NCBI RefSeq assembly: GCF_003254275.1
Contig: NZ_QKZK01000007.1
Location: 62,001 to 126,000, forward strand
Direction of reading: 5' to 3'
Origin: Breznakibacter xylanolyticus
GTDB taxonomy: Bacteria > Bacteroidota > Bacteroidia > Bacteroidales > Marinilabiliaceae
Length of the DNA stretch: 64,000 nt
The position numbers and the translations under genes were made by a program. Positions 5,868 through 62,063 of this stretch are shown here, in pieces. The notes beneath the pieces are model-generated. The model ran no database searches and was not told the DNA's origin. It saw only the letters and a program-made list of their open reading frames with translations. Numbering within the stretch: the stretch's first letter is position 1; each line of letters starts with the position of its first letter.

Positions 5868-8800
5868 ATGTCAAGCCTGCAATTTGAAGCCCACATAGAC
5901 ATCAGCCAAATAAGAAGAGAACTCGCCGAAATGGAAGCGCGCTTTCAAAGGACTACTCAATCAGCATCATCGAGTGGGCAAGAAATGGATGCCACATTTA
6001 AAAAGATTGGTGCAGCCATGGCCGGCTATTTCACATTGACGGCCGCCAAAGGATTCCTGGACCAGGTGATTGCCGTGCGGGGCGAATTTCAACAGCTCGA
6101 CATCGCCCTGCAAACCATGCTTGGCAATAAGGAGCAAGCAGACAAGCTAATGGCTAATGTGGTTCAACTGGCCGCTAAAACGCCATTCTCACTCACCGAA
6201 CTAGGGCAGGGTGCCAAACAGTTATTGGCGTTTAAAACACCAGCTGAGCAAATCCCCGATACGTTGCGCCGCATTGGTGATGTGGCCGCCGGGGTATCGG
6301 TGCCTGTTGGCGATTTGATATCGGCTTATGGCAAGGTATCGGCAAAAGGCAAGATGCAGGCTGAAGAGCTGAATCAGTTTGCCGAGCGCGGTGTTCCCAT
6401 CATCAGCGAACTGGCGAAAGTGATTGGCACCACCGACGATGCCATTTATAAGATGGCCGAACAGGGCAAGATTGGCTTTGGCGAACTGCAACAGGCCATC
6501 GTGAACATGACCAACGAGGGCGGCCAGTTTGCCAACATGATGGAGAAACAGGCTGAATCGCTCACCGGGCAGCTGTCGAACCTTGGTGATGCTTGGGATA
6601 GGATGTTGAATGATGTCGGGACATCCAGTCAAGGCATGATTTCGGGTGGCATTTCAGGGTTAACATCGTTGGTTGAGAATTATGAAGTGGTTCTAAAAAT
6701 TCTGGGGCTGATTATAACCGCCTATGGCACATACAAAGGTGCAATAGTAGCAGTTGCGATGGCTGAAAAGGCAAAACTGGTAGCTACACAAGTGCAAGAG
6801 TACATCAAGATGGCACGAGCTTTAGGTGTGGCCACAGCCAACCAAATTGCTTTTAATAGAGCAACATTAATCAATCCATATGTTGCAGTCGCAACCGCAA
6901 TTACGGGATTGGTAGCAGCAATGATATTCCTCAATAAAACAACGAAGGAATCCATTGGTGTTAGTGCTGATTTTAAGCGAAACCTAGACGACGAACTAAA
7001 ATCCGTTGAAGGCAACTTTAAAGCGCTCAAAGGAACCGCAGAAGGAACAGAAGCAAGACGCATCGCTATTGAGAATATCAACAGCAAGTATGGGGAATAT
7101 TTAGGAAATCTTTTGACTGAAAAATCCTCGTTAGAAGATATCCAGAAAGCACAAGAAGCCGCGACGGTTGCCATTGCGAAAAACATGGCGCTTAAATCGC
7201 AGGAAAAGGAATTAACCAGCTATAAGGATGCTGTAAAAGAAGCAGAAGAATCATATTCAAAGTCGCTCAAAAAGATTTTCGATAAGACATCTGCGTCAAG
7301 TGCAGCAAAAGGGGCGGCATCTGCTGCCATAGATGCATATATTGAGGAGTTATCAAAGACAAACATTGGAGCAGGGGCGCGTTTCGATTTTGAATCAATA
7401 TGGGGGAAATTAGGTCAAAATGGCATAAACATAGCAGGGTCAGATCGAGCCGTGATTGACCTGGGGTATGCTGTTACCGAAACAATCAATGCGCGGCAGT
7501 CAGAGCAAAAGGCTATGGAAGACCTGAATGCCACTTATGATGCCTATTTAAAAAAAATTGGCATCATTGACAAAACGGAACCCCCAAAGGTGGAAGACGG
7601 CAAAACGGGAGGTGAAGATAAGGACAATGCCTACGACGGCGACAAGTACCGCAAGACATTGGCCGAGCAAAAGAAAGCCTACGACGACTACGTGGAGGCG
7701 ATGAAAAACGCCCGCCCCGAGGACGAAAAGGCACTTGAAAAATACTATGCCAACTTAAAGAAGCAGGGGGATGATTACAAAGCATACCTCAACAAACAGC
7801 TACAGGTACACAAAGGGAATGTAGATGCCACAGCCGCCATTTACCAGGCAGCCGCCAAAGGAGGCGTCATCCTCAATGGGAAGGAAGACTTTAAATCAAT
7901 GTCCGGCAACACCGACACATCAAAAGTGAAGGTGACGGATATCAAGAGAAGCGCCGCTGTGCCGCTTGAGTTTAAGAAGCTCGCCGACTACTCAGAGAAA
8001 GCAAAGCTGAACGCAGAGAAGTTGCGGAAAGAAATGGGTATGCTGAGTAAGGCCGAAATTGGTGCCGGTCTCATCGAAGGCGCCAACGCAATGAGCGAGA
8101 TGGCTCGCTATGCCGGTCAGATGGATGAAGAACTGGGGAAGGCCTTGCAATCGACCGCCGATATTGTGGGAAATGTGGGGAATGTGGTGGCAGGAATGGC
8201 AAGTGGAGATTACTTAGGGGCAGCCGTTGGAGCTGTAGGAGTGATGGCCACAGTGAGTTCACTGTTTGACGACTCAGCCGCCAAACAGGCCGAAGCTGCC
8301 CGACGAGCCGAGAACACACGACAACAATACGAGCTTCAAAACAGAGCGTTGGAATATCAGATTGAACTGATGAACACACTCTCGGGCACTGACAGGACGC
8401 AGGCGCAGGTAGACACACAGAATCTAATAGAAGAACAGATTGCCAACTTAGATGCAAAGGCAAAAGCAACACAGATTAAGTTTGGCGAACTAGGGCAATA
8501 TCAAGTATCCGTCAAAGGAGCCGAAGACTTGATCAGATTAATGGAAGGACGAGGTAAGTACAATACGGAGGATCTGACGGGTAGTAACATGTTTGCCATT
8601 GGTATCAATCAGATTAAGAAGAATATTGACGAGTACAACTCTGTGGAGCAAATGGTCAACCATGGTCTCAATGTTAAGAATCTGGAAGACATACAAAATC
8701 TCATCGACGAATATACAGCCAAGAAAAAACAACTTGCCGAGTTCTACGAAGAAGCCTCCGGAACCACAACCGATGCCATCACCGATTCCATCGTTGAGGG

Positions 8801-9383
8801 ATTCCGAAACGGCCAATCGGCAGCCGACAGCTTGGCCGAGCACACCAAGGACTCGATGAAGAACGCATTGATTGAATCGTTCAAAAACACATATGTCACG
8901 GCAGCGGCAGCCAATATAGTGACGAAGATAGGCGAAGCGATGACTGACGGGCTGGTAACACAGGACGAACAGGACGACATTAATGCAGCGACACAAACGG
9001 CAGCCGAAGCAGCTGAAAAGGGGATGAAAATCTACACCGATGCTTTCCGCAACATGTACGGAGAGGATTTATTCAGCTCCGACACCGACTCCACCGAAAG
9101 CGGCTTGGCCGGAGGCATCCGCAAGGAGATGACCGAGGAAACCGCTTCGCGATTGGCCGGGCTGTTCAACGTGATGAGCCTCGACACCCGCAGCATCCGC
9201 GACAACATGCAGCTAAACCTTGCCAACAACGTGCAGCAGTTGAATCAGATGATCGCCATAGAGCTCAACACGGGACGGACAGCCGTGGCGACAGAAGCGA
9301 CGGTGGCAGCGCTCAACAATGCGATAACAGAATTGAGGTCGATTAAAACCAACACATCAAACAACCGGAGGGGCGAAGGATGA
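5868..9383 (+). CDS. Tail tape measure protein
   Basis: 1171 residues; sets the length of the tail and is ejected with the DNA. Residues about 75-255 match the tape-measure N-terminal domain: [18 protein letters not shown], then [20 protein letters not shown] and the [20 protein letters not shown] segment. Hydrophobic helices follow at about 275-300 and 330-352, with another near 780-810. The rest is long, helical and rich in Ala, Lys and Glu, with a Lys/Asp/Glu-rich stretch near 570-650. The 3' end overlaps the distal tail gene by 4 bases. Length predicts a tail of roughly 170 nm by the usual 1.5 angstrom per residue rule. Confidence 0.92.
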
Positions 9384-10159
9384 TCACGATCAACACACAT
9401 CCCCTCACCTACTGGGGGTTGAAACCGATACGGTGGGATGACACGCTAAGCGTGAAAGGCATCTTTGACATGCCAAAACGCAAAGGCGACACGGAGCGCA
9501 GTTGGGGCACGAGCATCGAAGCCTTTACCGATGCTGCCGACATCGTGTTTGACGGGCGAACCATCACCATCAGGGCACTGGCCACGGGGTCAATTAAAAC
9601 CGTTGTGGATGCGTTTGCGAGTTACCTCAAGACAAATACGCTCACGCTTGGCACCGACTTTTCGAGCTTTAGCGTCATCCTGAAGGACGACATCAAGGTG
9701 ACGAAAGTCAACGCCCAGGCGGCGACCGTGGAAGTGAATCTGTGGCAGGAAACGGTACTGTTTGGCACACCATCGGGCGCCACAGGGGGCACGGGCTGGA
9801 GGATTGACGGTTACAACTTCAAGGACTTTGGGTTGAGCGCCTTGAAATCATCTGATTATCTCGACACACCTAAGCGAATCGAGGTCAACACGACGGCTTT
9901 CTACACCATCACCACCTATCGAGAAGCACGAGAATTGACCATTGAATGCCTGTTGAGAGGCACCGCAAAAGCCGATTTCTGGAACAAGCTGCAAAAGCTT
10001 TACGGCTTACTGGCCGGTGCCGGCACAAGAACGGTGACATTCCCCGACTCTTCTATTTTTAAAGGATACGTGCGAGACGGGGTGAACTGCAAGCGGGTGA
10101 ACATCATCAACGGGAAGGTGTTTGCCGAACTCACACTTAAATTCAGGGAGGTACAATGA
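9380..10159 (+). CDS. Distal tail protein (Dit-like)
   Basis: 259 residues, between the tape measure and the tail-tip genes and overlapping both by 4 bases. This is the place of distal tail proteins, which form the hexameric hub at the end of the tube. It starts with a beta-rich part ([19 protein letters not shown]) and ends with [20 protein letters not shown], similar to the second domain of Dit proteins, where a ring is built from strands. No enzyme motif is present. The call rests on order, size and fold type. Confidence 0.65.
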
Positions 10160-13100
10160 ACATCAACATATACAGAGCCGGCAGTGTGGTGACCACCCTC
10201 CCGGTGGCCGACAATGCCGAGTGCAAGCGCAACATGCAGGGGGTTGATGAAATCACCATGGAGGTGGTGCAAACCACAGGCAGTATGCCGGTGCAGATTG
10301 GGGACTACATCATCTTCGAGAATCGAAACTACTACCTCAACCAACCTGCCACACTTGAGAAACGCAGTGAGGTGGAGTATCAATTCAGGCTCGTGTTTGA
10401 AGCCAACATCTACACCCTGCTCAATAAGTTGTTTCAACAACCAGTGACGGGTCGTGGTGACTTTGCCCTTGTTGACGACCTGAACGGGTTTGTGGATGTG
10501 TTGCTGGAAAACATCAACGGCATTGACAGCGGGTGGACGAAGGGGAGCATCCCCACCACCGAGCGCAAATTGATGACCTTTGACGGCGAGACATGCCGGG
10601 CGGTAATGAATCGACTGGCCGATGATTTTGACGTGGAGTTTGTGGTCATCGGTAAGCAAATCGCCTTTTACGACATCTACGAAACCGCCACGTCGTTGGT
10701 ATTCGAGCACGGCAAAGGGAAAGGGTTGTACCAGCTTACCCGCGAGAATGTGGACAGCGACAACACCGTGACACGTGGCTGGTTTTGGGGATCGACAAAG
10801 AACATCGACTACACCTACCGCAACGGTGAAACCCGCCTGATGTTTACCAACCCTGCCACAGGCACGAACCGCATTGACAACTTTGGGGAATTTGCCAAAG
10901 TGGTGGAGAAGCAGGTGATTTTTGAGGATGTGTGGCCGCACTTCACAGGTACGATCGCCACGGTGAGCAACAACACGACTACCCGCACCCACTCTTTTAC
11001 CTGCCCGCAGATTGACTTTGACGTGGAACTTCAGTTGATGGAGGGGATCACAGGTAAGGTGTTCTTTAAGTCGGGCGATCTGCAATCGCAGGAATTTGAG
11101 ATTAAGAGTTACGACCACGCCACTCGCACCATCACACTCATTACTTACACCGATGAGTTTGGCGGGGTGTGGCCGAATGCGAGCTTCATGCCCCGTGTGG
11201 GTGACCAGTTCACGTTTATCGACATCATGATGCCGTCGGCTTACGTGGCAGCGGCCGAAGCCGAACTGGCAGCCAAGGCAGCCGACTGGATGGCTTACTA
11301 CTCGAAGCTGCGGGTGAAGTACCGCCTTGACCTCGACCCTCGATATTTGCGCAACAATGCCATCACGCTCAACCTGGGCGATGTGGTGCGCATAATTGAC
11401 TCGGCGCTGGGCATCGACCGCCAGATTCGCATCACGTCAATTGAGAAGGACATTGCGAACCCCTACCGGGTGAAGTGCGAAATAAGCAACATCCTCGAAG
11501 AGCGCTGGGATAAGAAGATATCGAAGAAGGTGCAGGAAGCCATCAACACGGCCAAGTCGGCAACGGAGAAATCGTCGTCGATAGCCGGAAGTGCGGCGAG
11601 TGCGTTTTTCAGGCAATATTTTGAAATCAAGGGAACCGCAGGTGTCGAACGCATTGAACCGAAACTCACCTTCAGAGGACAACTCCATGCCCCCACATCC
11701 ATTGCCTATCCCGGCATCGCCATCAGCAACGACAGCGGCACTGTGTTATCACGCCTTTACCGCAGTAACACCAACGGGGTGTGGTACATCGACGGTAATC
11801 AAATCATGACCGGTGCTAATATTCTCAATGCCCTATTAACCGGTTATGTGGTTGGCACCGATGTCGCAGTTGTGGCATCCGATACGATACTGGCAGCCAT
11901 TCAAAAAATTCAAGGTCAGATTAATAACAGACCTAAGTACAATGAGAACGCAACTATAACTGGGGCATGGACATTCAATCAGTGTGTTACAATTCCTGTC
12001 AATGGGGGTAAGTTTCTCCAAGGCGGTGATGATGTAGGGTTATATGATGTCAATGTGCCCAACACCCTTGGGGTATATGGTGAACAGAATCAAACGGTTG
12101 GTGCTATCCAATTAGGTAGTCAAGGCGTTAGTATTATGGGGGATGCTGGTAATCTGTTGGTAGGTGGCGGTATCGGGATTGCAAAAACAAATAGTAATAG
12201 CCCCGTTGGAATCAGTCTATGGGATGGTTATAGCAACGTAAATGGAATTATAAATTATGGAATGTTCTTCGCAAACACCAATGTACTTGGTGGCCATGGC
12301 CACATTCCAACAGCGTCCGATAAACATGCAACCTATCTAACCATGAACAACGATGGCACGGCATGGGGTTGGATATTCGCCAATCGTGCTAACGGTCAGA
12401 ACGTTGCATCACTCACAACCGATGGACGATTGGTGACAAAAAACACAATAACAGCAGGTGACGGGGCAAGTGGCGTTGTTTTGAATAATAGTGGTGGAAT
12501 TGAAATATACCATGCATCAACCCCTTACATTGATTTCCATTACGGAAATAATGCAGGAGACTTCACCAGCCGTATAATTGAATCTGGTCTGGGGCAAATA
12601 GACTTCCTTCACAAGTCAAGATTTCAAAATAATCTATCAAGCATATCGTATTCAAGTGGTTTCGCTGGTATGGGTTGGCAGCTTGAATACGGCAATACTG
12701 CCCAAGCCACACTAACCGTTGATAATCTCTATGTGAGAGGTTCAATGAATGTATATGAATTGGTTGTAAATCAGGTTAGAGCAACGAACGGGTCACTATG
12801 GGTGAGTGATTCATGCAAGGCGATTTATGTAAAATCAGGTAGTTTCTACGATTTTACATTTGATGACGATGGAGGTCGTTCACCACGTCCGTTCAGAGAA
12901 GGTGATATTGTTCAATGTCAAGTTTTTGATGGGAAAAATGTAAAGAAATTGGTAGGTATCGTTAAAGACTTGAGTGGTTATGCTAATTCAGGCTTCGGCC
13001 TTCAAAAACCACTATTAGAAGGTGATAGTCAGTTAGTTGCTGGACAAGTCTATGATTTTGTCAGAATCTCATCTGTATCAGATACTAATAGACAAGGCGC

Positions 13101-14883
13101 ATTATACTTGACAAGCTCAGACCAATCAGCACCATTTATGGATGTAATTGATGGTGACTATACAACAATTAACGCACCCAACAAGATAAGATATATTCGT
13201 GATTGGATGTGTGGTAATAGCATTGATGGCGGTAATCACTGGATAGAGATTCAAGCAATTGATTATAATGGAGTTAATCAAGCCTATCAAAAACCAGCAT
13301 GGGGAAGTAATACACTAACTAATCCATCCAATTTAACCAATAACTCACTCAATTGGGAGGCTTGCGGTACACAATCACTTGGTGGTGATGAGTATGTTGT
13401 TGTTGATTTGCAAGTAGAATATGATATTGAAAAGGTTAAAGTATGGCATTATTACTATGACAATCGCACCTACCACCATACTAAAACAGAAGTATCCGCA
13501 GATGGCGTTAACTGGTACTGTATCCACAACTACATCATCCACGGTGAGTACGTTGAGACATATGACGGTCGTACATATGTACTTGGTAATAAGCGGACAA
13601 AGGCACGATTGGGACAACTCAGCGGGATTGTTGATGCTAATTATGGACAACTCAGCGGCTTTGGGTTATATGCCGAAAACGCATATTTAACGGGTGGTAT
13701 TGTCGCCAAATATGGTCGAATAGCTAATTTCACAATCAAAGATGATTGGATGCTGGGTGGCGATGAATCATTTCTCAACAACATCTCTAATGGTCAAGGT
13801 GTTGCGATAGGGAAAGAATCATACAATGACTTTCCTGGGATGTATGCAGCGTGGAATAATGGTGCTGGTGTATATGGTAATGTGTCAATGGGAAAGATAC
13901 TTAGACACGGTGTGGCGTGGGATAGTAAGATAGGTTTTAATTTCTTTCACAATAATCAAACACTGTTCGAGATATCAAAAAATACAAGTAGCGGTGAAAT
14001 AATAGCACTGATCGCAGGGTTCAATTTCTCGGCAACCCGTCTATGGGCTGGTGCTGACTGGGGTGCTGGTGCCGGTCTTGGGTTGTATAATGAAGGCAAT
14101 TATAAGATGTTTCACGCCTACAAGGACACGTCAAACTATGTCAGAATGGGTTATGGAATTGATGGTGATAGTGACTGGGGGTTGAATGGTGTGGTGAGTG
14201 GTAGTAGTGTGTTCAAGTTAGGATTAACCAATCAGATTGCAGGGTTCACGTTCACAAACAATAAGTTATCAAGTAATGTGTTCGAGATTACATCAAATAC
14301 GGATAACTCATGGATTTCATTCTTTCAGAGTTCCGCAAAATATGAGAGTAGTAGTGGAATCAAGTTCTTCCGTGATGGAGAGCAGGTTGCAACAATAGCA
14401 ACAGGTGGAGGGAATACAGGCCGAAAGTGGGTTCGGTTTGGGAATAATAATTCAGGAATCTCTGTTGATACCAGTGATTCTACATTGAAGAAACAAGTTG
14501 AATTGTATGGTGCTGTTAAAATTAACGGTGCTATGATGGTTGGATATGCTGACCCCACTATCACTACCACATCATATACATTGGGTGTGGATTACCTTAA
14601 ATTCTCCATCATTGATGTTAAGTGCACAAATTATGATTCAAAAATATCCCTGCCACAAAGCGGAGACATATATGATTACTTTGGAACAGTAAGTTCGGGA
14701 AAGGGTACTATTATAACGCTTAGAAATCACCATGAATCAACATGTAACCCCTATTTCTATTGGTTTTATGACAATAATGGAACATGGATTAATTTTTCAA
14801 ATGCTCAGCAAGTTGGTAAGGGGGATTCAATGACGTTCGTTTGGGACGGAAGTTATTGGTTATTAATTAATAGACAGCACTAA
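10156..14883 (+). CDS. Giant tail-tip protein with receptor-binding C-terminal part
   Basis: 1575 residues. Residues 1-440 look like the tail hub/Tal-type N-terminus, starting right after the distal tail gene and containing strand-rich blocks such as [20 protein letters not shown]. After a Lys/Ala/Ser-rich hinge (about 450-480) come repeated beta-rich units. Residues about 1040-1145 ([46 protein letters not shown]) have the pattern of a discoidin/F5-8 type C carbohydrate-binding domain. The C-terminal 400 residues are Gly/Asn/Ser-rich and fibre-like. The first third uses GC-rich codons and the rest from about base 11,900 is clearly AT-richer, which suggests that the receptor-binding part was acquired separately. 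Confidence 0.8.
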
Positions 14884-23085: not shown

Positions 23086-25152
23086 ATGCAACAACCACTT
23101 TTTACTCTGATTCACAAAAGGCGTCACCATTGGCTGGCCACAGTGATGCTGGTGTGCAGTATGGCCTTGAGCCGGGCTCAGGAAATCCTGCCCCAAACCG
23201 TTGGCTCATGGCCGGGCCTGCAATCGTTCGCCATTAGCGAAGACGAACAGACGCTGCTGCTCATCATCCGCGAAGGCGGCAACCACAAATTCGTCGAAAC
23301 GCGCCAAACACCCAACGGATGGAGCACCCCCACCCCCATCGAAACACTCAACCAGGCGACCGGTGGCAGCCCCACCGTTGGGGGACTCAAACTGAGTTAC
23401 AACGGCGAACGTCTGCTTTTTCACGCTGCATTGCCCGACAGCAAAGGCGGCACCGACCTGTACCTGTGCGAAAAACAAAATGGCCATTGGGGATCCCCCA
23501 TTAACCTGGGCGCCCCCGTCAACACAGCAGCCGATGAGCAGTACGGTTGCATGAGTGCGGGGCTCAATCGCCTCTTTTTCGCCAGAGGCGTCGCGAGCAG
23601 CACCTTCAAAAAACCCAACGACACCCCCGACTGCCAAACCCTAATGGTGGCCGTGCGCGACACAAAAAACCAATGGAGCACCCCCACGCAGCTCCTCGAC
23701 ATGATTAACCGCGGTTGTGCCCAAAGCCCCTCCCTGGCAATTGACGGGCAAACGCTCTTATTTGCAGCCATCGACCCCGACAACGACAAAACCGGCTTCG
23801 ACATCTGGTTTACCAAAGAAATTATGGAAGATGTGTGGTATCTGCCCACCGTGGTGACCGAAACCACCTCAAAAGAGACCGACTTTGCCCCCCAAACGGC
23901 CGGTAAGCAGCTCTATTTCATCCGACAGGTCATCAAGAAAAAAGAGGCCATCAACACCCTCATGAAAGTGGCTCTGCCCACGGCCGCTCTCCCCTCGCCC
24001 ATCCGACCCATCAAAGGAAACATCACAGCATTGCCAGGGCACACACCTCAGGAAGCCACCCTCAGCGTGTTCAACCCCACCACACTGGAAGCGCTGGGAA
24101 CCTACCACAGCAACGCGAGCACAGGCACGTTTGAACTGCCGCTACTCAGCGGGCGCAACTATCTGGTAGAGGTTCGTCAGCCCGGCTTTTCGTTCGCCTC
24201 ATTCACGATCGACCTGCGCGACACATCAGCCAACACCGCCCCCCGCCACATTGAACTGTTCAAACAAATAGAGTTGGAATTATCGGTCTTCGACAACGAG
24301 ATATTCCGGCCACTGAAAGCCGATGTGACGATTGCCGATGCGGCACTACCATCGCAAACCATTGCCCCGCAGACTCGCCAGGAGGGGCGTTACGCCTTTA
24401 CGCTGCCATTGGGACGCGAATACGTGGTGGCGGCGCAATGTCCGGGATTCGAAAGCAACTCATTTCGCTTCAACCTTACGGGCGATGTGGTGTTTGAAGA
24501 ATTCAAACGCAACATGCCCCTGGTGCCGCTCAAACATCCCTTTGAAGTGTTTATTTGCGATGCACAAACACGTCAACCCGTGCCGGCCGACCTAAAAATA
24601 CAGAATCTGAGCCGCGAAGAATCGTTTCGTATTCCGGCAGCCGAGGTCATCGATGGCCGCATTCAACTGCATCTTCGACACAACGACCGATACGAATTTA
24701 CGGTGCAGGGCGTGCAAGGCTACTCGTTCTTTAACCGCGTGGTCGATTTGAGTCGCGAAAACATCTTTAACCTCACCGCCGAACTCATTTCACTGAGGGA
24801 AGAAGCGGCCATTCGCCTCAACAACATCCTCTTTGGCACCAACTCATCGGTGCTCGCGGCCGAGTCGTTTCCGGAACTCGACCGGGTGATACAACTCCTG
24901 CGCGACAACCCCGGCATGAAAATCGAAATTGCGGCTCACACCGACAACGTGGGCAACGCGGCCTTTAACATACTGCTGAGCGACCGCCGCGCGCAATCGG
25001 TGGTGAGCTACCTCACCGACAACGGCATTGCCCCCGACCGACTCATTGCCAAAGGTTACGGACTGTCGGTTCCGTTGGTGCCCAACACCAGCGATGCCAA
25101 CCGCGCCCAAAACCGTCGCGTCGAATTTAAAATCATTGGCCTTAACCATTAA
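23086..25152 (+). CDS. OmpA-domain protein with beta-propeller-like and carboxypeptidase-regulatory-like parts
   Basis: 688 residues. A signal peptide or N-terminal anchor runs to about residue 31 (SRAQ). Residues 35-300 are a repeated beta pattern of the PD40/WD40 type, for example FAISEDEQTLLLII and PSLAIDGQTLLFAA. Residues 305-580 hold about three related beta-sandwich units that begin near KGNITALPGHTPQEATLSVF, similar to carboxypeptidase regulatory-like domains. The C-terminal 110 residues are an OmpA/MotB peptidoglycan-binding domain: LNNILFGTNSSVL, HTDNVGNAAFN, LSDRRAQSVVSYL, NRRVEFKI. This order resembles PorE of the type IX secretion system, but the TPR part of PorE is missing. The next gene follows after 12 bases. 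Confidence 0.8.
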   Translation: MQQPLFTLIHKRRHHWLATVMLVCSMALSRAQEILPQTVGSWPGLQSFAISEDEQTLLLIIREGGNHKFVETRQTPNGWSTPTPIETLNQATGGSPTVGGLKLSYNGERLLFHAALPDSKGGTDLYLCEKQNGHWGSPINLGAPVNTAADEQYGCMSAGLNRLFFARGVASSTFKKPNDTPDCQTLMVAVRDTKNQWSTPTQLLDMINRGCAQSPSLAIDGQTLLFAAIDPDNDKTGFDIWFTKEIMEDVWYLPTVVTETTSKETDFAPQTAGKQLYFIRQVIKKKEAINTLMKVALPTAALPSPIRPIKGNITALPGHTPQEATLSVFNPTTLEALGTYHSNASTGTFELPLLSGRNYLVEVRQPGFSFASFTIDLRDTSANTAPRHIELFKQIELELSVFDNEIFRPLKADVTIADAALPSQTIAPQTRQEGRYAFTLPLGREYVVAAQCPGFESNSFRFNLTGDVVFEEFKRNMPLVPLKHPFEVFICDAQTRQPVPADLKIQNLSREESFRIPAAEVIDGRIQLHLRHNDRYEFTVQGVQGYSFFNRVVDLSRENIFNLTAELISLREEAAIRLNNILFGTNSSVLAAESFPELDRVIQLLRDNPGMKIEIAAHTDNVGNAAFNILLSDRRAQSVVSYLTDNGIAPDRLIAKGYGLSVPLVPNTSDANRAQNRRVEFKIIGLNH

Positions 25153-25164
25153 TCGACATTATCT

Positions 25165-27321
25165 ATGAATATTCGATTTTTAAAGATGCACACGTGCTCC
25201 GCCATCGCCATTATCAGCCTGATGATCGCCCATGGTTGGATGGGAACAACATCGGCACAAATCACCAAATACGACGAAACCCTGCAATCGATGGCCAATG
25301 CCTCGCCCAAGCAGCGTTATTATCGTTTTTTTCAGTTGCAAAAACAGGACAACCAGTTTGCCAACACATACATTCATCTGGCCGATGCCTGTGAAAGAAT
25401 TGCCGTCAGCCTTGACCCGCTGCGCCAATACGACCGCATCAACCATTGGATGGGCAACGCCAAGGTGTATTATCAGGTATTTCCCATTTATTTGAACGAT
25501 AACGAAGTACGTAAAACAGAGGAATATTATGCACGCTTTGGCATCACCCCGTCGGAAAAACGGCTCAACAACCCCGATGTGCTGACCTACGTGAACAAAC
25601 ATGCCACGTTTTGCAATCACTTTCAGGATTCTCTCAAAATGGTGTTCAACACACTGGAACAATCCAAAGAGCATTACAACCGGGCGCTGGCCATCTTCAC
25701 CAACCTGTGCAGCCGTTACGAAAATCTCAACGAAGCGCTGCTACAAACCACCCCCGCGCTTCTACAAAGCTTAGATGAGATGGACAAGGAATTCAACCAG
25801 TCCACGACCTTGTTTACAGCCTATCAACAGCTGATTGCCAAATTTCCCATTGGCAACTACAAACAGCAATACACCCTTCGCCCCATCGAAACGTTCAGGC
25901 TGGATGGCCTTACCGCCAGCGATTTCCTATCCAACCAGTTCACCCTGTGGAATTACACCGACTGGACGACCCGGTTTCGCGAAGTGTACCAAACAGACAT
26001 TGAACCGCTGCGCGACGAAATAGTGGCGCTGCATCGCATGTTCGATGCCAACCGGCGCCAAATTGCGCCACGCGACACCATTGACGAATCGACCCGACTG
26101 AGCCGCGCCGACGACCTGTTCTTTTTCAGGTTGGGCAAGTACGACCAGAACTCGCTGGTGCGCGAACTCTTTCGTTATGAAAATGCCTTGCAGGAAATGC
26201 TCCTGCTGGCCAAATCGCCCCTCAATCAGATTACCGACAGCACTCTAGCCGTATATAACCGCAAGATGCGTTACACCTACCGTTTGGCGATGCAAACAGG
26301 AAAGACCCGGCAACGCCTCAACGACCTGCAACAAAACATCACCCCCGAACGCATTCGACGGTTTAATGACTTTTTCAATTCGGAATTGAATGGCGAAGCG
26401 GGAGTTAAACAATATTGCATTGAACAAACGGCGCAACTATCGCAAACCTTCGACCAGGCGTTGCTGCAATTGAACCGTTATCTGCTGAGCGAAGAAACCA
26501 CCCGCTCCCTCACCCCTGCCACAGGCTCAAAAGCCGGAACACTGGCCATGACCATCGGTGGCACCAACAAAGCAGGCAGCCATGAAACCTCGCAAGCAGC
26601 CATCCATCAGGGACAGGTGCGCTACCTTTCGGGGCAAAGCAACGGCGGGGGCAAACGCACTGCCTTTGTGGCGCGCGTGGGCATCACCGGAAAGGTGGAA
26701 TGGTTGAAAGAATACGAAATGAAAAACGTGGCCGACAACCGTTGCCCTGCGCTCACTGCCTTCGACGAAGGGTGCATGGCCTTGATTACCGGGAGCAACG
26801 GGACCCAACGCACCAACCAGTTGGTGCGTCTCTCCAACGCCGGCAAAGAAATCTACCGTCAAAACCTTCCCGTCACCGCCACGCCGGAATTCATCACCTA
26901 CGACGACATCAACAAACTCAGCCTGATGGCCTTTAACGATGCCACCGAAACCATCACCCTTTGCCAGGCCGACTCGATGGGCAACACCCTTTGGCAGACG
27001 CCACTTCCGGTCACCGGAAAAGTGGTGAGCGTGATCAAGCCCGACTCGATGTACGTGGCATTTATCAACTTCAGCAAGCAACAACTCACCACGGCCGCAT
27101 CCACCTCATTGGGACTGCTGGCAGTCACCATCGACCCGTCCGGTAAAGTAATCAAGGCAACACCCCTCACCAGTTCATCACCATTGGTATTTGAACGGGT
27201 ATTCCCCATCTCGGGCAGTGAAATCAGCCTCCTGGGCTATCGGGGAACCCCATCGCAACGCATCCCCGCCTACCTGGTGATGAAACCCGATGGTGAGGTG
27301 GTATTTAAAAACTTTGACTAA
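25165..27321 (+). CDS. Secreted protein of unknown function linked to the OmpA-domain gene
   Basis: 718 residues with a signal peptide to about residue 32 (TTSAQI). Residues 35-450 are helical and TPR-like, with long amphipathic helices (for example YRFFQLQKQDNQFANTYIHL, residues 50-70, and SLDEMDKEFNQSTTLF). Residues 470-718 are beta-rich and repetitive, with phrases such as VEWLKEYEMKN, TNQLVRLSNAGKEIY and GNTLWQTPLPVTG that look like blades of a beta-propeller (PQQ or WD40-like). No enzyme motif. It is 12 bases behind the OmpA-domain gene, so both probably act together at the periplasm or outer membrane. Family not recognised. Confidence 0.75.
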   Translation: MNIRFLKMHTCSAIAIISLMIAHGWMGTTSAQITKYDETLQSMANASPKQRYYRFFQLQKQDNQFANTYIHLADACERIAVSLDPLRQYDRINHWMGNAKVYYQVFPIYLNDNEVRKTEEYYARFGITPSEKRLNNPDVLTYVNKHATFCNHFQDSLKMVFNTLEQSKEHYNRALAIFTNLCSRYENLNEALLQTTPALLQSLDEMDKEFNQSTTLFTAYQQLIAKFPIGNYKQQYTLRPIETFRLDGLTASDFLSNQFTLWNYTDWTTRFREVYQTDIEPLRDEIVALHRMFDANRRQIAPRDTIDESTRLSRADDLFFFRLGKYDQNSLVRELFRYENALQEMLLLAKSPLNQITDSTLAVYNRKMRYTYRLAMQTGKTRQRLNDLQQNITPERIRRFNDFFNSELNGEAGVKQYCIEQTAQLSQTFDQALLQLNRYLLSEETTRSLTPATGSKAGTLAMTIGGTNKAGSHETSQAAIHQGQVRYLSGQSNGGGKRTAFVARVGITGKVEWLKEYEMKNVADNRCPALTAFDEGCMALITGSNGTQRTNQLVRLSNAGKEIYRQNLPVTATPEFITYDDINKLSLMAFNDATETITLCQADSMGNTLWQTPLPVTGKVVSVIKPDSMYVAFINFSKQQLTTAASTSLGLLAVTIDPSGKVIKATPLTSSSPLVFERVFPISGSEISLLGYRGTPSQRIPAYLVMKPDGEVVFKNFD

Positions 27322-29650: not shown

Positions 29651-30367
29651 ATGAAAACTAAACAAGCATTAATCGACAGTATTGTTGAATATTTTCGAGT
29701 AAAGATTTTTGAACAGCATATTCAAACGGCATTGACAGTTCACTCCAAACTAAAGAGTTATAACATCAACCCGATCGTTGCGAAGTATCTGTCGGTGGTC
29801 ATTGAAGGAAATTACACACCGGAAGGGATCGCGAAAGCTCTGTATTACCCGAGAGTACTGGGAACGTCGATCAACACATCTTTCGGCACACGCATTCAGG
29901 ATATGTTTGTGGAATTGGGAATCGCTAAAGGCTCCATGATTAAAGGGATGGACATCGAATTCATTGACAAAACCGACAACCGTCAAAAATGGTGTCAGTT
30001 AAAATCCGGACCCAATACCATTAACTCCGAAGATGTAACTCCTTTGATTAAGAAATTCACCGATACCATCAACTTAGCTCGAACCAACAAAGCGCTTGCC
30101 GGCATCAACAATACCGATTTTATTGTTGGGGTTTTATATGGCGATAAGTCGGAATTAAGCATGCACTACAAAAGAATTGATGCTCAACATCCCGTCATTG
30201 TGGGCACAGACTTTTGGCATCGTGTTACCGGCCATACTGACTTCTACAACCAATTGGTTTCAGCACTTCACGACACAATTCTTGCGCTTGACACAAAGGA
30301 TTTGTTGAACAAAGGATGTGAGCAACTGGCAAATGAAATAAGAACATCACCCTTATTTCATTTTTAA
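29651..30367 (+). CDS. Type II restriction endonuclease (Eco47II/PmeII-like)
   Basis: 238 residues. The catalytic core is visible as Asp101 in GMDIEFIDKTDN and QLK at 116-118 in WCQLKSGPN, a variant of the PD-(D/E)xK site. TSFGTRIQDMFVELGIA and VGVLYGDKSELS are patterns I associate with this endonuclease type, which may cut GGNCC-like sites, but the target cannot be read from the sequence. Its 3' end overlaps the methyltransferase end by 15 bases on the other strand, so the two are convergent. That layout differs from most R-M pairs and limits read-through. Confidence 0.8.
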   Translation: MKTKQALIDSIVEYFRVKIFEQHIQTALTVHSKLKSYNINPIVAKYLSVVIEGNYTPEGIAKALYYPRVLGTSINTSFGTRIQDMFVELGIAKGSMIKGMDIEFIDKTDNRQKWCQLKSGPNTINSEDVTPLIKKFTDTINLARTNKALAGINNTDFIVGVLYGDKSELSMHYKRIDAQHPVIVGTDFWHRVTGHTDFYNQLVSALHDTILALDTKDLLNKGCEQLANEIRTSPLFHF

Positions 30368-31597
30368 TTCGCCATAGTGATCATTTAAAAACTTAACAAT
30401 CGAATAACCGACTTCCCGTCCCAGATTAACAGGCACAGCATTACCTATTTGCTTATACTGCTGCGCCACAGACCCTGAAAATTGCCAATCATCCGGGAAG
30501 GTTTGGATTCGGGCATATTCACGAACAGTAAAAGGGCGAGTCTCCTCAGGATGACAGCGCTCAGTTTGCTTTTGAGCCGGACTGCAAGTGAGTGTCAGAC
30601 AGGGTTCATCCCACCCGATTCGTCTGGCCATGCCGGTTTTTCCGCCTCCCAAATAAAAACTTTGCCCCATAAATTCCTTCTGCAAATCGATGGGCAAATC
30701 TCTCCAATATCCCTTTTGAGGAACTAACTCTAAAATCTCCCTCTTACGCTTGGGATATTTTGCACCCTCTGATGGAGGCACATCATCATCAAAAAGTTCA
30801 CCCTTTTTAAGAGCATCACTCAAATTATAGATCTTGCTTGAAGGCTGGGGATATTCATAGATTGTGGAAATATCTTTTCGAATGCCGACCAAAATCAAAC
30901 GCTCTCGTTTTTGTGGAACCTTATAATTGATGGCTTTTAGAACCTGAATGGGAACCACCCGATACCCTATTTCATCCAATATTGAGATCATGCCCTGGAG
31001 TGTTCTGCCATTTTCATGACTCAGAAGCCCCCTGACATTTTCACCAATACAAAGAATGGGATTGACCTCTTTGACAACTCTCGCAAATTCATAGAATAAC
31101 GTCCCACGGGCATCATTCAGCCCCAGCTTTTTCCCGGCATAACTAAAGGCCTGACAAGGAAATCCTCCGGTGACCACATCAACCTGATCCCGGTATTCTG
31201 AAAAATCGAAGTTTTTGATATCACCCTCTAAAACATTCCAGTGGGGACGGTTTTGACGAAGTGTTGCACAGGCCCATTTGTCGATTTCATTTAAGGCGAT
31301 GCATTTTAACCCCGCTTTCTCTAAGCCCACGGCCAATCCGCCCGCTCCTGCAAATAGCTCCAACACACGATACTCACGATCAGCAACCACAGCATTTGAC
31401 ACTTCAGGGATTTCTTTGGATGCAAAAAAATCATCAAACAAACTTAGAACCTGTTCCTTTTTATAAACCCGATAATTACTCATCGGCTCCCTCACGGCGG
31501 TGAGTTTTCCATCCCGATCCCAGCGTCTTAACGTTTCTTTGCTTTTTCCGATTAGCTCAGACGCTTCTGCTAATGTCAAATATTCTTGTGTAACCAT
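30353..31597 (-). CDS. DNA cytosine-5 methyltransferase with N-terminal helix-turn-helix
   Basis: 414 residues from the ATG at 31597. Residues 3-50 (EYLTLAEASELIGKSKETLR, then RVYKKEQV) are a MerR/excisionase-like helix-turn-helix fused in front of the enzyme. The m5C motifs follow: motif I LFAGAGG (81-87), motif IV GGFPCQAFS with Cys148, motif VI ENV (186-188), and the C-terminal motifs PCLTLTCSPAQ, TVREYARIQTFPDDW and GNAVPVNL. It protects the host from the convergent endonuclease. The fused DNA-binding domain may also control its own promoter, as known for other m5C enzymes with such domains. Confidence 0.93.
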   Translation of the reverse strand: MVTQEYLTLAEASELIGKSKETLRRWDRDGKLTAVREPMSNYRVYKKEQVLSLFDDFFASKEIPEVSNAVVADREYRVLELFAGAGGLAVGLEKAGLKCIALNEIDKWACATLRQNRPHWNVLEGDIKNFDFSEYRDQVDVVTGGFPCQAFSYAGKKLGLNDARGTLFYEFARVVKEVNPILCIGENVRGLLSHENGRTLQGMISILDEIGYRVVPIQVLKAINYKVPQKRERLILVGIRKDISTIYEYPQPSSKIYNLSDALKKGELFDDDVPPSEGAKYPKRKREILELVPQKGYWRDLPIDLQKEFMGQSFYLGGGKTGMARRIGWDEPCLTLTCSPAQKQTERCHPEETRPFTVREYARIQTFPDDWQFSGSVAQQYKQIGNAVPVNLGREVGYSIVKFLNDHYGELKMK

Positions 31598-31630
31598 ATC
31601 GTGCAACCTTATACATTGGTTACAAATATA
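31590..31630 (-). promoter_or_regulatory. Methyltransferase promoter with possible operator
   Basis: TATATTTG on the minus strand (31630 to 31623) fits the -7 element TAnnTTTG. Between it and the start codon, GTAACCA (31590-31596) and TGGTTAC (31617-31623) form a perfect 7-base inverted repeat that spans the start codon region. A dimeric regulator bound here would block transcription or translation. Confidence 0.5.
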
Positions 31631-31735
31631 CAATGACGAAAGTTTAAAAAAAGGGCTTCACCCATTTTTAATTCTGCACTCTAGCAATCTCTTATTAATC
31701 GACTGATTTTAAGTTACGAAAACAGCCGACATCCC

Positions 31736-59750: not shown

Positions 59751-62063
59751 TCAAAACGGATAACCAATGGCAAAGTTAAAGGTCAAATCGTTCCAACCAA
59801 ACGGCTGATTGGCCAGCACCCAGCGTTTCCCAACAGGCTGTATGGGATCCCGAGCCTTAACTCCGGCATCCATCCGAAAAAGAAAATAATTAAAATCCAA
59901 CCGAATGCCGGCTCCAACACCAATTGCAATCTCTTTATAAAACTCATCAAATTCAAACAGCCCCCCCGGCAAACTGGCATCCGAACGAATTCCCCAAATA
60001 TTACCGGCGTCGGCAAACAAAGCACCTTCGAGCACCCAAAACATTTTAAAACGATATTCGGCATTCAGTTCTAATTTGATATCGGCCGTTTGATTATAAA
60101 AAGCAGAAACAGTATCGACAAAAGTTCCCGGCCCCACCCCACGCACCGGCCAAGCCCGAAGGCTGTTGGCTCCACCTGAGAAATACCTTTTTTCAAAAGG
60201 GAGCACTTTGGTGTTACCATAAGGGTATCCGACCCCTGCAAACAGGCGATAAGCAAAAGTATTGGCCCGGTTGATGGCATGATGATAACGCACGTCCACA
60301 TCACCCTTGACATACTGCGAGAACTGAATATCCATCACCCGGTAATGACCATTTTCATCAGGTTTTTCCCATAGCGAAACCAACGAGCGAAGGAAATTGC
60401 CGGCACCTTCCATATTAATGCGAGCAAACCAATATTCGGTTTGACGAGTTCGGGACTGATTATTGAACTGAAAAGCATAGGATGAATTGAGGATAAAGTG
60501 ATCTTCGTAGCTATACCTCAAAAAAGTGCCACTGATATATTTCCAAAAATCATCGTTGACATAAGGCAACCACACCAAGTTAAACTCAGCAGGATTAAAG
60601 GTATGGGTCACATAGCGCGATGAACGCCAATTATAGCCATATCTCAAATTCGCAATGGTACGGGTATAATCAGGACGATGCTGATAACTATATACAGCCT
60701 GAATATTGGTTTTAGGTGTAAACCGTTTACGAAATCCCTCAAACTCAAAAGGCAACCAAAACTTGGGCACTTCCAGTCCAACTTCCACACCATATTCAGA
60801 AGTATTGAACACATCGGTGGTATTGCGCACAAATTGACGCTCCTGCGACATTCGAAAACCGACATCCAGCACTTCGGCACCCCGCCACAAATTGCGATGC
60901 TGATATCGCAAGTTACCTCCAGCCCCCAAGTTACCCGAAGAATTAGTCCCTTCAACCTCCACCGAGAATACTTGTTTACGCGCAGGCACCATTTGAATGT
61001 AACAATCGAGCCACCCATTTTCGTCATCCGGAGTCGTTACATCCTTATATCGAATGTCGACATATCGGAAATAAGCCAATCCCGAGAGCAACATCTGCGT
61101 TCGATCGGCATAAAAGGCATTAAACCGCTCCCCCGGAGACAAATAGCTGGAGCTAATCAATACCGTAGGATGAACCTCAATATTTTTTTCAAACAGAAAC
61201 ACATTCCCCTCATAGGACAACGTATCAAATCCCTGAAAGCCACCTTCAAGCAAAGCCCGCTGAGGGGTTTCACTAATGATGTAATACACATTGCGGTAAT
61301 AATAGCGACGATGCGTCCCATTAGGATTGGATGCACCATCGGGCAATGGACAAGAAAGAATGAGGGAATCGACGACAGCATACCTTCCCAGTGCACTATC
61401 GACAGAGAACGAGATGTAATCTTTATTAAACGCGTAATAGCCCTGGTTTCGCAACCGCGAGGTAATGCGATCGCGTTCTTCATCGTGCAACGCGGCATCA
61501 AACGGTCGGCCGCGCCTTAACAACGAACGGGAAGTATCGGCCAACACATAGGCACGCATCGAATCGTCATCCACGCGGTAGCCCATTTGGTCGATGCGAT
61601 AACGCCGGGAGGGGTGAATGGTATACACCACCTTCACCTTTTTCTTTCCGGTTGGGATAACGGTATCGGTCACCAATGCGGTGAAAAAGCCCTTGGAGTG
61701 CATCAGGCGTTGTAACTGGTCGCGCGACATTCGGGTCAGGACTTCGTCATATAACACCGGCTCCTCACCAATGCGGCGCAACACCTTATTGACCCATTTG
61801 GATGTATCGGCACCCGAAAGGTTATAAATGCCCAGATGAGCCTTCCAAAAACCCAATATTTTCACATTTTCACGCTGACGCAGATAACTTTTCATCTCCA
61901 GCATGGAGATATCACGAATGGGAGAATGAATCATTGTGCGTGCCAGCATCTGCTCACCATCGGGCACATAACGAGTGGTACGGCATCCTGACAAAAGAGA
62001 GACCCCTACCACAATCAGTACTAACCAAAAGCCGTTGGAAAAACAGAAAAAACGATATCGCAC
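59751..62063 (-). CDS. TamL, lipidated BamA/TamA-family outer-membrane protein
   Basis: 770 residues. GTG start at 62063 (no ATG fits in frame between the previous TAA and the signal peptide). The lipobox VSLLSGC makes it a lipoprotein, as in the TamL type of Bacteroidota. POTRA-like domains lie between residues 30 and 400, and the C-terminal barrel shows the family ending (FAIGYPF) with FSGGANSLRAWPVRGVGPGT, the loop that corresponds to the conserved VRGY-type motif. It should work with TamB, whose gene is not seen here. Divergent from the RNA methyltransferase gene. Confidence 0.92.
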   Translation of the reverse strand: MRYRFFCFSNGFWLVLIVVGVSLLSGCRTTRYVPDGEQMLARTMIHSPIRDISMLEMKSYLRQRENVKILGFWKAHLGIYNLSGADTSKWVNKVLRRIGEEPVLYDEVLTRMSRDQLQRLMHSKGFFTALVTDTVIPTGKKKVKVVYTIHPSRRYRIDQMGYRVDDDSMRAYVLADTSRSLLRRGRPFDAALHDEERDRITSRLRNQGYYAFNKDYISFSVDSALGRYAVVDSLILSCPLPDGASNPNGTHRRYYYRNVYYIISETPQRALLEGGFQGFDTLSYEGNVFLFEKNIEVHPTVLISSSYLSPGERFNAFYADRTQMLLSGLAYFRYVDIRYKDVTTPDDENGWLDCYIQMVPARKQVFSVEVEGTNSSGNLGAGGNLRYQHRNLWRGAEVLDVGFRMSQERQFVRNTTDVFNTSEYGVEVGLEVPKFWLPFEFEGFRKRFTPKTNIQAVYSYQHRPDYTRTIANLRYGYNWRSSRYVTHTFNPAEFNLVWLPYVNDDFWKYISGTFLRYSYEDHFILNSSYAFQFNNQSRTRQTEYWFARINMEGAGNFLRSLVSLWEKPDENGHYRVMDIQFSQYVKGDVDVRYHHAINRANTFAYRLFAGVGYPYGNTKVLPFEKRYFSGGANSLRAWPVRGVGPGTFVDTVSAFYNQTADIKLELNAEYRFKMFWVLEGALFADAGNIWGIRSDASLPGGLFEFDEFYKEIAIGVGAGIRLDFNYFLFRMDAGVKARDPIQPVGKRWVLANQPFGWNDLTFNFAIGYPF

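Follow-up and report, generated by a model that had tools for sequence, protein, structure and literature searches.

A conserved pair of exported propeller proteins in Bacteroidales as a candidate peptidoglycan-anchored sensing scaffold

We have analyzed two adjoining genes of Breznakibacter xylanolyticus (Bacteroidota, Bacteroidales, Marinilabiliaceae) that lie on the + strand of a stretch of 64,000 nucleotides (positions 62,001 to 126,000 of contig NZ_QKZK01000007.1, assembly GCF_003254275.1), called the window below. The genes are separated by 12 bases and encode two exported proteins, P1 and P2, whose domains are collected in Table 1. P1 and P2 are conserved together, and genes for signalling enzymes are enriched beside them in relatives. 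We propose that the pair quite possibly forms a sensing scaffold in the periplasm that is anchored to peptidoglycan and acts together with signalling enzymes, a reading that we prefer while holding it short of probable. The locus had been singled out in a sequence-only reading made by a model; the gene positions and the spacing given there are reproduced exactly by the coordinates of the open reading frames (ORFs), and its outline of P1 as a propeller, about three regulatory-like sandwiches and an OmpA domain is borne out by Pfam and by an AlphaFold2 model.

Table 1. The P1-P2 locus and its domains (positions of the window; residues in brackets).
Feature	Position	Strand	Basis
P1, propeller + three CarboxypepD_reg-like sandwiches + OmpA, exported, 688 aa	23086..25152	+	ORF list, Pfam, AlphaFold2
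P1, TolB/GH43-type propeller	23194..23973 (37-296, approximate)	+	model, fold comparison
P1, three CarboxypepD_reg-like beta-sandwiches	23998..24750 (~305-555)	+	Pfam match to first; three from model
P1, OmpA-type peptidoglycan-binding domain	24823..25134 (580-683)	+	Pfam, model, alignment of 24
P2, helical-propeller protein, exported, 718 aa, without known family	25165..27321	+	ORF list, Pfam/NCBIfam/PDB searches, model
P2, long-helix domain including FRLDGLTxSDF motif	25270..26502 (36-446)	+	model, alignment
P2, propeller	26518..27309 (452-715)	+	model, structure searches

The model of P1 (mean pLDDT 86.2, pTM 0.67) displays, in this order, an N-terminal signal-like helix, the propeller, three beta-sandwiches and an OmpA fold. 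The limits of the sandwiches, at about residues 305-385, 388-480 and 483-555, are our own reading of the strand list of the model. Residues 309-381 match Pfam CarboxypepD_reg at 4.7e-8 and residues 582-677 match Pfam OmpA at 2.4e-18, the latter domain reaching 66.7 bits for PF00691 (gathering score 27.2). The propeller resembles both the GH43 enzyme 3akf (VIA Z 19.4) and TolB (1crz; VIA Z 17.6, rmsd 3.5, 215 residues aligned). Within the OmpA domain, D620 and R635 do not vary across 24 aligned homologues, and we take these residues to be the peptidoglycan contacts. P1 thus unites a TolB-type propeller and a Pal-type OmpA domain in one chain; to our knowledge, the TolB-Pal system has no counterpart of the P1 sandwiches or of P2.

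P1 is a variant of the PorE/CHU_0125 kind. PorE, which belongs to type IX secretion in Porphyromonas gingivalis, is described in the consulted part of the source as a lipoprotein with an N-terminal TPR, a propeller, one CRD and a C-terminal OmpA domain (PMC7192894). P1 shares with it the propeller, a CRD-like sandwich and the C-terminal peptidoglycan-binding domain, but has three sandwiches rather than one and scores 130.3 bits with the PorE model (NCBIfam NF052230), far below the curated cut-off of 600. There is no Pfam TPR match in P1 at E<=1, and the propeller of the model already starts at residue 37. The lipobox pattern is absent from P1 and P2 of the window and appears in 2 of 46 P1 and 2 of 52 P2 homologues, all doubtful, in a set where some starts are cut or placed too early. 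The sequence-only reading had seen in the pair the pieces of PorE spread over two proteins; the missing lipobox and TPR, the low score and the presence of a separate PorE-like gene in the same genome speak against that description.

P2 matches no Pfam or NCBIfam model over its cut-off and appears, at these thresholds, to belong to no named family. A PDB sequence search with the P2 profile returned a single match at E 0.95, i.e., no convincing relative. In the AlphaFold2 model (mean pLDDT 86.5, pTM 0.70), helices of up to 49 residues extend until residue 446 and are followed by the propeller; the motif FRLDGLTxSDF, at residues 244-254, is highly conserved in the P2 alignment. The helices and the propeller agree with what had been read from the sequence, but the TPR-like label attached to the helical half is lost, as a TPR model is found neither for the window P2 at E<=1 nor among the 23 Pfam families that match any of 24 P2 homologues (E<=0.1). 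Since the Foldseek and VIA rows listed for P2 mainly concern the propeller, so that the helical domain was hardly probed, we make no claim of a new fold for the latter. One of the 24 homologues, of 907 amino acids (L076:3040-5763), is extended at its C-terminus by a TonB_C domain (Pfam 1.4e-19), a further likeness to the TolB-Pal theme. No description of the P1-P2 combination was recognised in the openly licensed literature searched, judged from titles and abstract openings.

P1 and P2 form a conserved two-protein unit. P1 lies immediately upstream of P2 on the same strand in 47 of the 50 P2 loci examined in the order, the window included and a few cut or short loci among them. The two genes are likewise adjacent at all 23 loci of a second set, 16 of which were already among the earlier contigs. 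In one relative (L076) P1 is broken into two ORFs. The three other loci are not devoid of P1: G126 (582 bits) and G029 (509 bits) have a homologue on another contig, and in G107 it is split within the gene row of P2. Because P1 adjoins P2 in nearly all loci and the remaining three hold it elsewhere or split, we regard the pair as a real unit and exclude a chance arrangement of ORFs. Conservation of only one of the two genes, the outcome named beforehand as speaking against a joint function, was not observed: both genes are kept together. A candidate fusion of P1 and P2 in G104 (an ORF of 1319 amino acids) was rejected, as the reading frame of P1 ends ahead of P2 and the first part of the long ORF merely shadows P1 in another frame.

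The unit is accessory. P2 homologues are found in 29 of 149 relatives, counting the window's own genome. In a draw of 393 genomes of the order, 76 pass E 0.001 for P2; 37 of these reach at least 155 bits and count as strong, and the remaining 39 are weak and partial, most of them covering just the propeller. In a draw of 395 genomes of the phylum, 16 pass, and the only strong ones come from the own genome and from three genomes that share a different family of the same class (L114, L115, L116). In these three, the match covers the helical half of P2, in ORFs of about 600 amino acids with no P1-like gene adjoining.

The surroundings of the pair are enriched in signalling genes. At 54 loci, the immediately flanking genes (103 neighbours) were compared with the genes at the fourth and fifth position to either side (135 controls). 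Reg_prop/Y_Y_Y-SpoIIE proteins account for 17 neighbours, at 17 of the 54 loci, versus 3 controls, CHAT proteins for 6 versus 0, cyclase-HD proteins for 5 versus 0 and response regulators for 5 versus 1. Taken together, signalling classes make up 33/103 neighbours versus 4/135 controls (Fisher p 4e-10, without kinship correction), or 33/103 versus 5/135 when a caspase control is counted in (p 2e-9); these p-values overstate the effect, since the classes were chosen with the neighbours already in view, the profiles for SpoIIE and CHAT were derived from neighbouring genes and the loci share ancestry. At least one signalling neighbour is present at 29 of the 54 loci. A Pfam scan found 9 SpoIIE domains among 86 neighbours and 8 among 17 others, and SpoIIE is not in the first 25 of 200 Pfam families (all with at least two members) for 110 of the 135 controls.

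The SpoIIE-type neighbours are found across nine families of the order, with a mean column identity of 41% and many invariant Asp and Gly in their SpoIIE part, which are presumably metal ligands. The TPR-CHAT and caspase proteins have signal-peptide-like starts, as judged by eye, and carry His and Cys motifs, which read ATHGF and SACETG in the TPR-CHAT proteins. The TPR-CHAT gene is divergent from P1 at four loci (L075, L086, L146, L148) and lies upstream in the same direction at two others (L066, L156), while at L076 a TPR relative occupies the same place and is cut by the contig end. The cyclase-HD neighbours belong to a single genus within the host's family, where five genomes have them. 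In G107 (L039:11150-15424), the propeller and sandwiches of P1 form one protein with a caspase domain; a WD40-OmpA protein and P2 come next in the row. A TPR-caspase gene of G125 (L067), about 5 kb from the pair, was excluded from the counts. In genomes of two families, small exported proteins are encoded upstream of P1 (L061, L062, L152, L157, L161, L162); six of the 86 scanned neighbours match DUF6702 and were taken by eye as these proteins.

Beside the statistical reservations given above, several observations weigh against a coupling of the pair to signalling enzymes. No signalling-class neighbour is present at 25 of the 54 loci, and the enzyme varies by lineage. The caspase profile hits none of the 103 neighbours and one of the 135 controls, the caspase cases being either a fusion or genes that are not immediate neighbours (at L079 and L080, one gene separates the pair from a TPR-caspase gene upstream). 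In 8 of the 14 genomes searched, the matches listed include full-length SpoIIE relatives at places apart from the pair. The window locus itself has no signalling gene adjoining the pair: by Pfam, a GDSL hydrolase gene lies upstream, divergent from P1, and a DUF2264 gene begins 217 bases downstream. Elsewhere in the host genome, no listed match spans the whole SpoIIE-protein model, the best one reaching 474 bits over positions 4-835 of 1085. Two host ORFs (on contigs C19, 1166 amino acids, and C14, 1066 amino acids) match just positions 678-1084, the Y_Y_Y-to-SpoIIE part, among the matches listed, and may be divergent relatives of these proteins.

Despite these points, the signalling neighbours lead us to favour a so far unnamed envelope-sensing module over a part of the type IX machinery. 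P1 and P2 would be the two halves of one periplasmic, non-lipidated complex. The OmpA-type domain would hold P1 to the peptidoglycan, the three sandwiches would serve as a stalk presenting the TolB-like propeller, and P2 would dock on P1, adding a helical scaffold and a second propeller. Such a complex could sense the state of the envelope and relay it to a lineage-specific enzyme. In many relatives this role would fall to the Reg_prop/Y_Y_Y-SpoIIE phosphatase, which we assume crosses the inner membrane, and elsewhere to a cyclase-HD protein or to an exported protease of the TPR-CHAT or caspase type. The anchoring end of this model is proposed because of the OmpA domain and its motif, the partnership of P1 and P2 because of their co-conservation, and the signalling role solely because of the neighbouring genes.

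The strongest competing explanation assigns the pair to type IX secretion or gliding as an accessory scaffold, in which P1 anchors an outer-membrane or motor component and P2 acts as an adaptor, like PorE does for PorP; we consider this unlikely, though still a serious candidate. The architecture that P1 shares with PorE and CHU_0125 is in its favour. So is the distribution of GldM, which is matched in all 37 strong-P2 genomes of the order draw (weakly in G717, ~1e-33, and G784, ~1e-32) and in 357 of the 393 genomes overall (E<=0.001; 346 over its cut-off), with no strong P2 in the 36 genomes without a GldM match (hypergeometric p 0.024, uncorrected). Co-occurrence with type IX genes had been suggested as a check of the pair, and a genome with a strong P2 match but no GldM match was not encountered in this draw. 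Even the two P2-bearing genomes without SprA match, G065 and G067, have GldM and PorP-like genes. Yet, this co-occurrence is nearly uninformative, because GldM and SprA (the latter in 144 of 149 relatives) are near-universal in the sampled genomes. The pair is nested in type IX-bearing genomes and missing from about 90% of them, strong P2 being present in only 37 of the 357 GldM-bearing genomes.

Gene order mostly speaks against a type IX role. In the host, the pair is located on contig C7, apart from SprA (C1), GldM (C15), the PorE-like gene (C32) and eleven PorP-like genes found elsewhere. A PorP-like gene shares the contig of the pair in none of seven genomes, some of these contigs being only 16-20 kb, and GldM does so in one (G126), lying on another contig in the other six. 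In G126 (L055:2745-11388), a row of GldL, GldM, the Reg_prop-SpoIIE protein and P2 is found, and given this row the pair may have a type IX link. PorP-like/PorE-like cassettes with a type B CTD protein are known from Flavobacterium, as far as the consulted parts of the sources go (PMC9143113, PMC12618676). There, too, a PorE-like protein belongs to a compact group of conserved genes, and two PorE-like paralogues of the host (on C41 and C27) adjoin PorP-like genes in the same arrangement. For P1-P2 such a cassette is not supported, as no PorP-like gene is adjacent or on the pair's contig in any of the seven genomes. The view of the sequence-only reading, an unnamed envelope complex serving an outer-membrane machine, is therefore retained in part: the complex is conserved, unnamed in the literature searched and equipped with a peptidoglycan-binding end, but the absence of linked PorP-like genes and the signalling neighbours argue against service to the type IX machine.

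PorE itself offers a more specific version of a type IX role. PorE passes the cut-off besides the pair in three of four genomes tested. The best host match (G000:C32:26039-27526, L209) is a protein of 514 amino acids with a lipoprotein-like start, as judged by eye, which stops after the sandwich/CRD and has no OmpA peptidoglycan-binding domain. The counts that follow hold among the matches listed. Among 71 genomes of the host's family, the PorE match is short in 33 and full-length in 32, with six left unassigned; 31 of the short matches end at model position 502-526 of 648 and two (G033, G048) at about 430. P2 is present in 14/33 genomes with a short match and in 1/32 with a full-length match (Fisher p 2e-4, uncorrected), as well as in 1/6 of the remainder, a pattern that favours a type IX role and fits a replacement by the pair of the OmpA domain missing from the host's PorE. 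On the other hand, 19 of the 33 genomes with a short match lack P2 and, outside the family, 11 of 13 P2-bearing relatives (G113 and G135 being left unassigned) have a full-length PorE match, so that the pair is no general replacement for the cell-wall domain of PorE and this candidate was rejected.

A purely structural role is improbable in our view. The pair would then tether the peptidoglycan to an outer-membrane protein or lipoprotein and maintain outer-membrane integrity, as is reported for CHU_0125, without a role in signalling. CHU_0125_OmpA (NF053607) is the best NCBIfam match of P1, at 157.4 bits, and is matched by all 24 aligned P1 homologues; propeller and C-terminal OmpA domain are common to both, and the single P1 chain, in which a TolB-like propeller is joined to a Pal-like domain, suits a tether as well. 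According to the consulted part of the source, CHU_0125 of Cytophaga hutchinsonii combines TPR and PD40, is annotated as a Pal lipoprotein and, when deleted, harms outer-membrane integrity (PMC5891637). However, P1 remains far under the curated cut-off of 620 bits and has neither the TPR nor the lipobox that would go with CHU_0125 and its lipoprotein annotation, and a pure tether leaves P2 and the signalling neighbours unexplained.

A role in handling a polysaccharide or protein substrate that is secreted or located at the surface, with the propellers as ligand binders and incidental neighbours, is very improbable: the P1 propeller is nearest in fold to GH43 glycosidases and in the window the pair is flanked by genes for a GDSL hydrolase and a DUF2264 protein, but propeller fold similarity says little on the ligand, and of the 100 families listed for 86 neighbours in relatives, the first 25 include neither GDSL nor DUF2264. 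A defence-system reading was tried with PADLOC and rejected: the P1 OmpA domain matches the MotB-like ZorB, P2 gives no match, and the rest are a caspase match to the G107 fusion and weak ones to WD40-OmpA and SpoIIE proteins.

Elsewhere in the window, positions 5868-14883 hold phage-tail-like genes with Pfam matches to a tape measure protein and a prophage tail endopeptidase. A C5 cytosine methyltransferase-like ORF (29651-31633, - strand) adjoins an ORF of 238 amino acids, possibly as a restriction pair, judging by eye from the translation.

Returning to the proposed sensing scaffold, a bolder form of it can be formulated, which we consider rather unlikely. P1-P2 would be the core of an unnamed Bacteroidales signalling system in which a wall-bound scaffold controls interchangeable enzymes, namely SpoIIE-type phosphatases spanning the inner membrane and periplasmic proteases of the caspase clan (TPR-CHAT, caspase), acting as a cell-wall checkpoint in the manner of an activation platform. 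If true, exported caspase-like proteases would be tied to a peptidoglycan-anchored platform, and the pair would provide a handle on how the state of the cell wall is sensed in Bacteroidales. It also advises caution in annotation, as the propeller-OmpA proteins of this phylum may not all be parts of type IX secretion.

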